Shown here one piece after another: positions 46,661 through 61,737 of a stretch of 64,000 nucleotides of DNA (position 1 is its first letter; every line of letters starts with the position of its first letter). A program made the position numbers and the translations under genes. The stretch spans positions 892,501 to 956,500 of the forward strand of contig NZ_JAMGBA010000002.1 of assembly GCF_023516455.1 (NCBI RefSeq), given 5' to 3'. This stretch comes from Sphingomonas caseinilytica. GTDB taxonomy: Bacteria; Pseudomonadota; Alphaproteobacteria; Sphingomonadales; Sphingomonadaceae. Under the pieces are notes generated by a model. That model was not told where the DNA came from and searched no databases. It saw nothing but the letters and a program-made list of their open reading frames with translations.

Positions 46661-47914
46661 ATGGCCGACACCGACCAGCCTTTAATTGCAGCACTCGATA
46701 TCGGATCGTCGAAGGTCAGCGCGCTGATTGTGACGCGCGACCCGGACGGGCGACTGCGCGTGCTCGGCACCGGCCAACGGGAAAGCCGCGGCGTCAAGCG
46801 CGGCTATGTCACCGACATGGAAGCCAGCGAGGTCGCGGTCCGCGAAGCCGTCGAGATCGCCGAGCGCATCTCCGGCGTCACCATCGATGACGTCTGGGCA
46901 AGCTTTGCCGCCGGCGGACTGGTCAGTGACATTGCCAATGTCGAAGTCGAACTGGGCGGCCACCAGGTCGAACAATCGGACATCGAGGAATTGCTTGCCG
47001 CGGGCCGCGGCGCGATCGACCGCAACGGCCAGGTCGTCCTCCATGCCCATCCCGCCCTTTACACTGTCGACGGCGTCGAGGGCGTGCACCATCCGATCGG
47101 GCTTCATGCCGACCGATTGGGCGTCGACATCCATGTCGTTGCCGCCGATCCGGCGCCTCTCCGCAATATCGATTTCGTCATCCGCTCGGCGCACCTCGGC
47201 GTGAAGGCGATCATCGCCTCCCCGGTTGCCGCTGCGCTCGCCTGCCTCACGCCGGAAGAGCGAGAATTGGGCGTCGCCCTCGTCGAAATGGGCGCCGAAG
47301 TGACCAACATCTCGCTTCACGCCGGAGGCATGCTCGTAGGCCTTCGCTCGATACCGCTGGGTGCCAAGGATATCACCGACGACATCGCCTGTGCGTTCGG
47401 CGTCCAACGGCGGGAAGCGGAACGGATGAAATGCCGGTTCGGTTCGGCGATGACATCCCCGCGCGACAATCATGAAATGGTCGAGGCAACGCCAATCGGC
47501 GGCGATGACGGCGGAGAGCCGCTGCGCATCACCCATGCCCAGCTGATCACCGTCATCCGGCAGCGCACCGAGCAGATCACCAACGAGATCGAGCGCGCGC
47601 TGAAGGAACTGGGCTTCGCAGGACCGGTCGGCCGGCAGGTGGTACTGACGGGCGGTGGCGCAGAGCTGAAGAACATCGCCGACTATATGCAGGGCGTGCT
47701 TGGCCGTGCCGTCCGGGTCGGCCGTCCGAAAACCATCACCGGTCTGCCGGAGGCGCATAGCGGGCCCGGCTTCTCCACCTTGGTGGGTCTCGCCATGCTG
47801 GCGGGCGAAGGAAGCGGCGACATCCGCGACCTGGCGCTGGTTGGTGTGACCCAGAAGAAGCCGGCGACCGGGATGATGGGCCGGCTTATCGCCGCGATGC
47901 GGGGCGGGTTTTAG
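46661..47914 (+). CDS. ftsA: cell division protein FtsA
   Basis: 417 residues, actin-like ATPase that ties FtsZ to the membrane. PLIAALDIGSSKVSALI (phosphate 1), VKRGYVTDMEASEVAVREAV, the 1C domain around ADRLGVDIHVVAADP, GVALVEMGAEVTNISL (phosphate 2), VLTGGGAELKNIADYM (adenosine site) and a C-terminal amphipathic end (GMMGRLIAAMRGGF). Its normal partner ftsZ is 1.45 kb further on, past a transporter gene. Confidence 0.97.
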   Translation: MADTDQPLIAALDIGSSKVSALIVTRDPDGRLRVLGTGQRESRGVKRGYVTDMEASEVAVREAVEIAERISGVTIDDVWASFAAGGLVSDIANVEVELGGHQVEQSDIEELLAAGRGAIDRNGQVVLHAHPALYTVDGVEGVHHPIGLHADRLGVDIHVVAADPAPLRNIDFVIRSAHLGVKAIIASPVAAALACLTPEERELGVALVEMGAEVTNISLHAGGMLVGLRSIPLGAKDITDDIACAFGVQRREAERMKCRFGSAMTSPRDNHEMVEATPIGGDDGGEPLRITHAQLITVIRQRTEQITNEIERALKELGFAGPVGRQVVLTGGGAELKNIADYMQGVLGRAVRVGRPKTITGLPEAHSGPGFSTLVGLAMLAGEGSGDIRDLALVGVTQKKPATGMMGRLIAAMRGGF

Positions 47915-47960: not shown

Positions 47961-49184
47961 ATGGCGACCATCGCGACGACGAAGAACGCCACGGGGGCAC
48001 TGATCCTCCTGCTGGGAGCGGCGGTCTTCCTCAACTATGTCGATCGCGGTGCGATCGGGATCGCCGCGCCGGTAATGAAGGGCGACCTCGGCCTGTCCGA
48101 TGAAGCCTATGGCGTCGTTTTCTCCGCCTTCTTCTGGATCTACGCGCCGGTTCAGCTCTTCGCCGGTTGGCTGTGTGATCGCTTTTCCGTCTATCGGCTG
48201 ATGGCCGGCGGCATCGTCCTTTGGGCGGCGAGCACCCTCTTAATGGGTTTCGCGGGGGGCTTTGCCTCACTCCTTGTCCTCCGCGTCATGCTCGGCATCG
48301 GCGAAAGCATCTCCTTTCCCGGAAGTTCGAAAATCATTGCCCGCCACGTTCCGCCCGAACGGAGGGGCGTCGCAAATGCTGCGGTGGCTGCCGGAATTGC
48401 TCTCGGGCCGGCGGTCGGAACTCTTGCAGGCGGCTTGATCCTGGCGAAGTGGGGCTGGCCAGCAATCTTCTTCGTCTTTGGTGCCGTGACGTTACTGTGG
48501 GTGCTGCCGTGGCGGCAGGTGGTGGGAACGCTTCCAACAACGGGTCATCATGACGAGGGGCCAAGGGTTCCGCTCGGCGAGCTTCTCACCAAATGGCCGC
48601 TATGGTCGATGTCGATCGTGCATGCCCTCGGAAACTATTGTTTCTATTTCCTGCTTGCCTGGCTGCCCCTGTTCCTGACCAAGTCTCGGGGCTTCAGCAT
48701 CGGCGAGATGACCATGCTGGCGACGCTCGGCTATGCGGTTCAGGGCGCCTGTGCGCTCGGCTATGGCCACTTCTCGGACTGGTGGACGCGGTCCGGAAGG
48801 TCGGAGGCCGCTTGCCGTCGCTGGATGATGGTCGTCAGCCAGTTGGTCGCTGCGGGAGCGATCCTCGGACTGGCATTCGCGCATACTGCGCTATCCATCG
48901 CGATCCTGCTGTGCCTCGCGGGGGCGGCGTCCGCGGCGCTATCGCTCAATCTCTATGCCGTTGCGCAAATGTTTGCTGGTCCGCGAGCATCCGGGACCTG
49001 GGTCGGCGTGCAGAATGCCATCGGCAACCTGTCCGGCATCATTGGGCCAATTGTTACCGGCATTGTGGTCCAGCGCGCTGGTTACAACAGCGCATTCATC
49101 CTCACAGCGATCGTAGCCGCAATCGGTGCAATTTGGTGGGCAGTCTGCGTTCCGCGCATCGAGCAAGTAAATCTGAAAGATTAA
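47961..49184 (+). CDS. MFS transporter, anion:cation symporter-like
   Basis: 407 residues with 12 membrane helices. LNYVDRGAIGIAAPVMKGDL near the start and the loop WLCDRFSVYRLMAGG match the ACS branch of the major facilitator superfamily (hexuronate, glucarate and related acids). The second half has YGHFSDWWTRSGRSEAACRR. A purine-rich ACAGGGGGGATTGA precedes the ATG. Its place between ftsA and ftsZ is unusual, and no sugar-acid catabolic gene is nearby. Substrate unknown. Confidence 0.88.
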   Translation: MATIATTKNATGALILLLGAAVFLNYVDRGAIGIAAPVMKGDLGLSDEAYGVVFSAFFWIYAPVQLFAGWLCDRFSVYRLMAGGIVLWAASTLLMGFAGGFASLLVLRVMLGIGESISFPGSSKIIARHVPPERRGVANAAVAAGIALGPAVGTLAGGLILAKWGWPAIFFVFGAVTLLWVLPWRQVVGTLPTTGHHDEGPRVPLGELLTKWPLWSMSIVHALGNYCFYFLLAWLPLFLTKSRGFSIGEMTMLATLGYAVQGACALGYGHFSDWWTRSGRSEAACRRWMMVVSQLVAAGAILGLAFAHTALSIAILLCLAGAASAALSLNLYAVAQMFAGPRASGTWVGVQNAIGNLSGIIGPIVTGIVVQRAGYNSAFILTAIVAAIGAIWWAVCVPRIEQVNLKD

Positions 49185-49224
49185 CGTTAACGACGAAGCG
49201 GGCTTTTCATGGCTGTGCCATTTT

Positions 49225-49320
49225 GAATCATGGTGAGTCTGTACGGGCACAATCCACGCTTTTTTTCGTTTTACGTTAACTTTTACGCTTGTCGCGGGAC
49301 TCGCAATGATTCATGGATTC
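49225..49320. promoter_or_regulatory. cluster of five GANTC sites upstream of ftsZ
   Basis: GAATC at 49225, GAGTC at 49235, GACTC at 49298, GATTC at 49308 and GATTC at 49316. Two pairs are exactly 10 bases apart. GANTC is the site of the cell-cycle methyltransferase CcrM of alphaproteobacteria. The last site ends 48 bases before the ftsZ ATG, so the cluster covers the likely promoter. Confidence 0.7.
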
Positions 49321-49367
49321 TCGTTGACGGTTCAACGCGCTAGCAGCGCAGGGGGAGGGGTTAGTCC

Positions 49368-50753
49368 ATGAGCATTGATTTCATCCGGCCGGAAGTGGAC
49401 GAGCTTCGCCCGAGGATCAGTGTCATTGGTGTCGGCGGCGCCGGCGGCAACGCCATTGCCAACATGATCCGCTCCGACGTCCAGGGCGTCCAGTTCCTGG
49501 TCGCCAACACTGACGCGCAGGCACTCAATGCTTCCGAAGCCGACCAGCGCATCCAGCTGGGCCTCAAGATCACGCAAGGCCTGGGTGCCGGCTCGCGGCC
49601 CGAGATCGGTCGCGCCGCAGCCGAAGAGACGCTCGAAGAGATCGAGCGCTCGCTCGACGGTGCGCACATGTGCTTCATCGCCGCAGGCATGGGCGGCGGC
49701 ACCGGCACTGGCGCCGCGCCGGTCATCGCCAAGGCCGCGCGCGACCGCGGCATCCTGACCGTCGGCGTCGTGACCAAGCCCTTCGCGTTCGAAGGATCGC
49801 GCCGCATGCGCTCGGCCGAAAGCGGCATCGAAGAGCTGCAGAAGCATGTCGACACGCTGATCGTCATTCCCAACCAGAACCTGTTCCGTCTCGCCACTTC
49901 CGAAACCACCTTCAAGGAAGCGTTCGAGATGGCGGATGAGGTACTGCAGCAGGGCGTCCGCGGAATCACCGACCTGATGGTCATGCCGGGCCTCATCAAC
50001 CTCGACTTCGCCGACGTCCGCTCGGTGATGGGCGAAATGGGCAAGGCGATGATGGGAACCGGCGAAGCTTCGGGCGACAACCGCGCCATCGAAGCCGCGG
50101 AGAAGGCGATCTCGAACCCGCTGCTCGATGGCGTCAGCATGAAGGGCGCCAAGGGCGTCATCATCTCGATCACCGGCGGCGACGACATGCGCCTGATGGA
50201 GGTCGACGAGGCCGCCAGCCACATCAAGGAACTGGTCGACCCCGACGCCAACATCATCTGGGGTTCGGCGTTCAACAACGACCTTGGCGGCAAGATCCGC
50301 GTGTCGGTCGTCGCCACCGGCATCGAGGCGGAAGCCGCCGTCCAACCGACGCAGGGAAAGGTCTTCACCTTCCCGACCGCCGGCCGCCCCGCCGCGGCTC
50401 CTACGCCAGCTCCGATCATTACTCCGGCGCCCGAGCCCACGGCCGAAGAAGCGCCGCTTGACCTGACGAGTGACGACGAAGCGACCGATGAACTGCTGCT
50501 CGGCAATGACGATATCCTTGCCGATCCGGTCATGGGTACGCCGATCGCTCCGCCAATCGACGAGGAAGAAGCCGAGATCGAGCCGATCGAGGAAGCCAAG
50601 CCGGCCGCTGCTGCCGGAGGCACGCTGTTCGAACGCATGTCGAACATCGCGCGCGGCGCAGCCCAGGCGAAGGTCGAGGAAGAGCCGGTCCCGGGCTTCC
50701 GCCGCGAACCGCTCGATATTCCGCGTTTCCTTAATCGGCAGAATAATCAGTAA
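49368..50753 (+). CDS. ftsZ: cell division protein FtsZ
   Basis: 461 residues. Tubulin-like GTPase that forms the division ring. [18 protein letters not shown] at the start, the tubulin signature [13 protein letters not shown] near 103-115, [20 protein letters not shown] with synergy loop Asp, a disordered Pro/Glu linker (about 320-430), and a C-terminal FtsA-binding peptide [20 protein letters not shown] precedes the ATG. The 183 bases upstream hold its own control region. Confidence 0.98.
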
Positions 50754-61336: not shown

Positions 61337-61365
61337 TCACGGCTAGAATCTGATAGAGTCCGCCG

Positions 61366-61737
61366 ATGTTCGGCGTCGATACCAGCGAACTGCTCGTTGT
61401 GGCGGTAGTGGCCCTTTTGTTCATCGGGCCCAAGGAGCTGCCGCGCGTCATGATGATGGTCGGCCGCTGGGTCGGGAAGATCCGCGGCTATGCCCGCCAT
61501 TTCACCTCCGGAATCGAAAATGTGATCCGCGAAGCCGAGCTGGAGGAAATGGAGAAGACATGGCGCGAACAGAATGACCTCATCATGAAGCAGTTTCCGC
61601 CCAACGCGACCTACGAGGAACCGAAGCCCGTCATGACGTCGCTGCCGCCGGACGAGGGCCAGCCGGGGCTGCCGCTTGAAGCGCCCCCAGCGCCGGACGA
61701 GGATCCCACGCCACCTGAAGACCGGCCGCTTCCATGA
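61366..61737 (+). CDS. tatB: twin-arginine translocase subunit TatB
   Basis: 123 residues. FGVDTSELLVVAVVALLFIGP then KELPRVMMMVGRWVGKIRGYARHF, the TatB form of the hinge and amphipathic helix, with an acidic helix and a Pro-rich tail. It joins TatC to recognise the twin-arginine signal. Overlaps tatC by ATGA. Confidence 0.95.
   Translation: MFGVDTSELLVVAVVALLFIGPKELPRVMMMVGRWVGKIRGYARHFTSGIENVIREAELEEMEKTWREQNDLIMKQFPPNATYEEPKPVMTSLPPDEGQPGLPLEAPPAPDEDPTPPEDRPLP

Follow-up and report, generated by a model that had tools for sequence, protein, structure and literature searches.

In Caulobacter ctrA is a classic methylation-controlled gene, and GcrA is reportedly, in the model of Haakonsen and others from 2015, a cofactor of sigma-70. 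The closest described counterpart of the promoter analysed here is that of Caulobacter crescentus ftsZ, where a single CGACTC between the -35 and -10 elements makes transcription methylation-dependent; in the accessible text of that report the effect is graded, about two-fold, with transcription lowest from the unmethylated, intermediate from the hemimethylated and highest from the fully methylated promoter (PMC3708114). The mipZ promoter of Caulobacter contains two juxtaposed GANTC sites, and GcrA, which prefers methylated GANTC, binds hemimethylated DNA in a strand-dependent manner (PMC3667746), while at 11 of 96 Caulobacter cell-cycle start sites two or more GANTC lie within 50 bp (PMC4287350). 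Counts of one to five or six GANTC per 300 bp are found in the ctrA promoters of both Sphingomonadales and Caulobacterales (PMC8116508); among 13 species of Alphaproteobacteria, some have an ftsZ gene scored as a likely target of GcrA (PMC7987155); and SMRT sequencing has detected methylation of GANTC in Sphingomonas sp. AAP5 (PMC8067484), all as given in the accessible parts of these reports. In the open literature that was searched, no paper describing GANTC arrays of several sites at the ftsZ promoter of Sphingomonadales was found.

Five GANTC sites upstream of ftsZ

The window, by which we mean the whole 64-kb stretch of DNA analysed, contains ftsZ at 49368..50753 on the forward strand (Pfam PF00091 and PF12327; TIGR00065 421.7 bits, cut-off 295.2). 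The gene is preceded by a 183-bp gap, the 5' bound of which is a major facilitator transporter gene on the same strand (47961..49184; PF07690). Within this gap lie five GANTC in 96 bp, starting at 49225, 49235, 49298, 49308 and 49316, as an earlier note on this DNA had counted them: two distal sites, d1 (GAATC, 49225..49229) and d2 (GAGTC, 49235..49239), and three proximal sites, p1 (GACTC, 49298..49302), p2 (GATTC, 49308..49312) and p3 (GATTC, 49316..49320). Successive spacings are 10, 63, 10 and 8 bp; the two pairs 10 bp apart in which the note saw a 10-base phase are present, but the fifth site does not follow this pattern. The ftsA gene is located 5' of the transporter gene, at 46661-47914, the transporter gene separating it from ftsZ. 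By eye, the frame before ftsZ ends alike in a few relatives, such as G026, G028 and G061, and is seemingly ftsA in others.

Between the distal and proximal sites the forward strand presents, in this order, a T-tract (49260..49266), which forms a T-rich block in the genus alignment, GTTAAC (49275..49280; majority base in 40-47 of 63 genomes per column) and TTT-CGCTTG, of which CTTG (49288..49291) is near-invariant (CTT in 62-63/63 and G in 58/63 at these columns). A consensus sigma-70 promoter was rejected, a scan having found none. We presume that CTTG is part of the -35, and that ATGGATT (49313..49319, forward strand), placed by position and conservation, is the -10 region; the spacing would then be 18-19, which is long, with the presumed -10 overlapping p3. 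In the alignment p1 lies 3' of CTTG and 5' of the presumed -10, and would thus be inside the spacer. A conserved block, TTCAACGCG (49331..49339, forward strand; TTCA in 60-63/63 at its columns), follows p3 and the presumed -10.

The TTAA of GTTAAC resembles what we take to be a CtrA half-site. Regular CtrA sites were rejected, as TTAA-N7-TTAA occurs in 0/63 upstream regions of 250 bp and ATGGTTAA in one (G009). A DnaA box was similarly rejected as a constant part: it is exact in 4/63 regions, present with one mismatch in a fifth and absent from the window. In the four genomes (G051, G059, G037 and G030; loci L032, L038, L039 and L125) the exact box, TGTGGATAA, stands beside a distal GANTC, ~143-145 bp before ftsZ.

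GANTC is scarce in the window, where 119 copies were counted; dinucleotide shuffles contain 328 on average. Across forty 20-kb stretches (800 kb of the 2.78-Mb genome, with ORFs called crudely) its density is 3.11 per kb outside ORFs (167 in 53,644 bp) and 1.73 inside. At the intergenic rate the probability of at least five sites in a given 96-bp stretch is ~1.6e-5, and a rough Poisson estimate gives ~0.03 such stretches in the genome, in agreement with the view of the earlier note that the cluster is rare by chance. The ftsZ promoter is one of only two 96-bp stretches with at least four sites in 864 kb (the window plus the 800 kb), the other being the hemE-maf region. Among GANTC pairs the 10-bp spacing is not enriched, a single pair at this distance occurring in a 400-kb genome sample. 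A further GAATC-N5-GAGTC pair with 10-bp spacing is found at 61346-61360 of the window, directly 5' of the ATG at 61366 of a gene that by eye resembles tatB.

The distant inverted repeat described from GAATCAT and ATGATTC is real and longer than had been claimed. Its distal arm of 16 nt (49224..49239, forward strand), which contains d1 and d2, is 88% complementary to the proximal arm (49298..49313, reverse strand), which contains p1 and p2 and is in inverted orientation in relatives too; GANTC itself being palindromic, part of this complementarity is automatic. In the 15 of 63 genomes with both pairs, the ten positions outside the fixed letters match at 2-8 when the copies are inverted and at 1-3 when they are direct. 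YGAKTCK is given as the extended Caulobacterales motif in the accessible part of the relevant study (PMC7987155). Of 111 distal sites, 22 fit this motif pointing up and 6 pointing down; the corresponding counts for the 156 proximal sites are 6 and 21 (Fisher P 4e-5, relatedness uncorrected).

Site number within and outside the genus

FtsZ was searched in 71 genus genomes, named members among the public loci including Sphingomonas cremea and Sphingomicrobium lutaoense. The upstream 200 bp was readable in 65; three genomes lacked an FtsZ match and three (G012, G065 and G066) had a match without a gene start. All 65 readable regions contain 3-6 GANTC (3 in 11 genomes, 4 in 28, 5 in 18 and 6 in 8), although these genomes are related and do not represent 65 independent events. 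The absence from close relatives that the earlier note would have held against its proposal is thus not what is observed. In 63 genus regions there are 276 GANTC, compared with 60.0 in dinucleotide shuffles (sd 6.8, maximum 80, 200 rounds) and with 98 copies of the next commonest XYNY'X' palindrome.

The genus alignment contains two arrangements. In the first, which includes the window, a distal GAATC-GAGTC pair with a 9-10 bp spacing is combined with the proximal triplet p1, p2 and p3; in the second the distal sites are ~21 bp apart and p2 is absent. By column, d1 is GAATC in 36 of the 63 genomes, d2 is GANTC in 40 (GAGTC in 39 of these), p2 in 43 and p3 in 61, and a GANTC 16-19 bp 5' of p3, corresponding to p1, is present in 48, with C, G or A as its central base. 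All three proximal sites co-occur in 32/63 and at least one distal site is present in 61/63. In G025, G045, G036, G011, G033 and G068, which lack d1, the inverted word pair GTCCC...GGGAC was seen by eye at its position. The alignment does not bear out a strict 10-base phase, which was rejected because spacings of 8, 9, 10, 17, 18 and 21 bp, as well as others, are all present; the distance from d2 to p1, 62-65 in one branch and 49-53 in the other, is near whole helical turns only roughly. Single sites have been gained and lost across the genus while the total has held at 3-6, and site number has a variance/mean of 0.19 in the 63 genomes (relatedness uncorrected). The low spread of site number, together with the turnover of single sites, argues that number, not geometry, has been selected, which we read as redundancy. 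The non-GANTC promoter columns have a median pairwise identity of 0.56 across the 63 genomes.

Outside the genus, in samples that partly overlap, the 200 bp upstream of ftsZ contain 0-4 sites, mostly 0-2. The counts are 0 in 9, 1 in 27, 2 in 21, 3 in 10 and 4 in 3 of 70 Sphingomonadales loci; 0 in 3, 1 in 10, 2 in 8, 3 in 3 and 4 in 2 of 26 out of 28 loci from other genera of the family, drawn from the 30 best-matching of 79 genomes (two starts not found); and 0 in 14, 1 in 7, 2 in 4 and 4 in 1 of 26 out of 29 loci in a class sample (three starts not found). Ten loci, L041-L050, were excluded from the outside count as genus members. One other genus has 4 GANTC in 96 bp (L297). By eye, a single GANTC stands at a comparable position ahead of a GTGCA word in many other Sphingomonadales, and therefore a single p1-like site is probably ancestral.

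CcrM, GcrA and other GANTC-dense places

The earlier note had regarded the lack of a ccrM gene as grounds for abandoning its proposal; ccrM-like and gcrA-like genes are both present in the genome. The CcrM-like methyltransferase gene (L121:1169-2332; PF01555, N6_N4_Mtase, 233 bits; PF18755, RAMA, 62 bits) encodes a protein that matches NF050803 with E 4e-189 and 628 bits (627.8), under the equivalog cut-off of 830. Its neighbours in L121 resemble, by eye, RNase HII and dihydropteroate synthase genes, and no restriction gene was seen beside it there. The GcrA-like gene (L122:1179-1850; PF07750, 142.8 bits) encodes a protein scoring 134 bits against NF050816, under the equivalog cut-off of 280. 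A RAMA match and a GcrA match were each found in 20/21 genomes, the latter also in 79/79 family genomes; G008, a genome of the same genus that is 96% complete and has the array, gave no GcrA match. GcrA frames in Sphingomonadaceae are mostly 220-290 aa, compared with a model of 173 positions, and often have a long stretch between the N- and C-terminal parts. In the 21-genome sample the frames of the genus are longer than those in eight other order members. Co-evolution of a long GcrA linker with the arrays was rejected, however, since long frames are common in genera of the family without such arrays.

The region upstream of ccrM (L121:919-1168; G000:C1 near 167 kb), which is outside the forty-stretch sample, is denser than that of ftsZ, with 7 GANTC in 250 bp. 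With ccrM start codons chosen by rule, the equivalent 250 bp contain 5-10 sites in 11/11 usable genus relatives (L256-L266; G005 not usable) and 4-5 in 7/7 other Sphingomonadales. Four GANTC occur around the dnaA start (L166:4179-4316; G000:C1 near 674 kb). As a second array ctrA, identified by eye from its N-terminus, was rejected, having one GANTC in 300 bp. Seven sites lie in 127 bp at L232:10458-10584 (G000:C2:370458-370584), between hemE, which exceeds the cut-off of TIGR01464, and a Maf-like gene, which scores 113.4 bits against TIGR00172 (cut-off 117.15); this cluster also has TGTGGATG words. As replication in Caulobacter starts at the hemE region, the hemE-maf cluster is probably the origin of this genome.

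With hemE-maf as reference, ftsZ is on the same contig at 0.41 of the replichore, and in 20/20 complete genus genomes it is at 0.32-0.48 of the replichore from mnmG. The turn in the GC skew sampled along G078 falls at ~1.11-1.2 Mb, coinciding with mnmG at 1.187 Mb, and mnmG therefore marks the origin there. The dnaA gene is located away from the origin marked by mnmG, a separation also reported for Sphingomonadales in the accessible text of an earlier study (PMC8116508).

Candidate roles of the array and comparison with known systems

We consider it likely that ftsZ has a methylation-dependent promoter, activated by CcrM and GcrA and expanded to several sites, of which the five GANTC form the cis-part. 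The CcrM-like enzyme would methylate the adenines of GANTC, as shown for its family elsewhere, and the GcrA-like protein would bind the methylated sites and help sigma-70 RNA polymerase to start ftsZ transcription. The positions of p1, between the presumed -35 and -10, and of p3, over the presumed -10, would suit this function, and the array, if Caulobacter is a guide, would be a multi-site landing place for GcrA. After the fork has passed ftsZ, by proxy at ~0.4 of the replichore, the sites would stay hemimethylated until renewed CcrM activity late in S phase, should the timing be that of Caulobacter, and the extra sites may allow GcrA recruitment to survive hemimethylation or the loss of a single site. 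Redundancy, and not a steep switch, is the most likely contribution of these extra sites. Consistent with a methylation-dependent promoter, p1 retains GA-TC around a variable central base, which selection for methylation would predict, p3 is GANTC in 61/63 despite the low identity at other columns, and other dense places exist at hemE-maf, ccrM and the dnaA start. Weighing against it are the scores of the CcrM-like and GcrA-like proteins below the equivalog cut-offs, the array of G008 without a GcrA match, the one GANTC at ctrA, the lack of CGACTC at p1 and of a consensus promoter, and the long 18-19 spacing.

The earlier note had instead proposed a steep methylation switch. With cooperative sites, a passing fork would make all of them hemimethylated at once and so turn ftsZ sharply down or up. 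Several sites are indeed close together, the mid-replichore position means that the hemimethylated period is not short, and there are single-site precedents, hemimethylated ctrA P1 being activated and ftsZ being most active when fully methylated, in the accessible text of that work (PMC8116508). The geometry is, however, variable: one branch lacks p2 and d2, 15/63 genomes have no p1 and spacings differ, single sites turn over within a total of 3-6, pairs at 10 bp are not enriched, and the Caulobacter ftsZ effect is graded, as far as its report can be consulted (PMC3708114). We therefore regard a steep switch as unlikely. The inverted pairs could have the opposite effect, acting as a buffer such that hemimethylation does not split the sister promoters, an idea to which we assign a low probability. 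GcrA binding to hemimethylated DNA being strand-dependent in Caulobacter and the two pairs facing opposite ways, each sister would, if this were true, retain a pair methylated on its favourable strand, and both ftsZ copies would be equally active after fork passage.

The sites could alternatively belong to another DNA-binding protein, the operator of which contains words resembling GANTC by coincidence, such as inverted copies of TGAATCA-GAGTC. The 16-nt inverted repeat and the partly conserved flanks, in which T before and A after the site are commonest, would suit such an operator, whereas variation of the central base at p1 and of the spacing, turnover of sites at a maintained count, and the dense GANTC with other spacing upstream of ccrM would not; this explanation is accordingly rather improbable. 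Chance, or a relaxed depletion of GANTC in intergenic DNA, is very improbable, for although GANTC is denser in intergenic than in coding DNA, as accessible text reports for Alphaproteobacteria (PMC3973325), the probability per stretch at the intergenic rate is minute and the conservation of the array in 65/65 genomes, at a site number that shuffles never approach, already contradicts it.

If the ftsZ promoter is indeed a multi-site, methylation-dependent one, single-site control of ftsZ by methylation would have become multi-site in one genus, with a steady site number despite the turnover of individual sites. Its promoters, with 3, 4, 5 or 6 sites, would then form a natural series for setting a sharper switch against robustness, a question beyond the reach of single-site Caulobacter promoters. 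It would also suggest that the CcrM regulon of Sphingomonadaceae has its core in a small set of GANTC-dense places: the replication origin region, ccrM, dnaA and ftsZ.

The Caulobacter crescentus system (Gonzalez and Collier 2013, PMC3708114) shares with that described here the gene and the CcrM and GcrA homologues; its GANTC between the mapped -35 and -10 would have a counterpart in p1 if the elements presumed here are correct. As far as that report is accessible, the earlier note was right that CcrM controls ftsZ in Caulobacter, but the effect there rests on one conserved CGACTC and is graded, whereas here there are five sites, 3-6 in the genus, and a distal inverted pair; ftsZ is near the terminus in Caulobacter, in contrast to ~0.4 of the replichore here. 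The p1 hexamer of the window is GGACTC, CGACTC occurring in 15/48 genus p1 sites, and the absence of CGACTC leaves untouched the claim that the two promoters work alike. A GANTC in the promoter core is also common to Caulobacter mipZ, ctrA P1 (one site) and other GcrA/CcrM promoters, which differ in having fewer sites at other genes, and for which the accessible texts describe no inverted pair of pairs. The GANTC-rich ctrA promoters, in what is accessible of their description (PMC8116508), resemble the ftsZ array in having many sites in one promoter, and come from the same order; here, in contrast, the clusters are at ftsZ and ccrM, and ctrA has one site.
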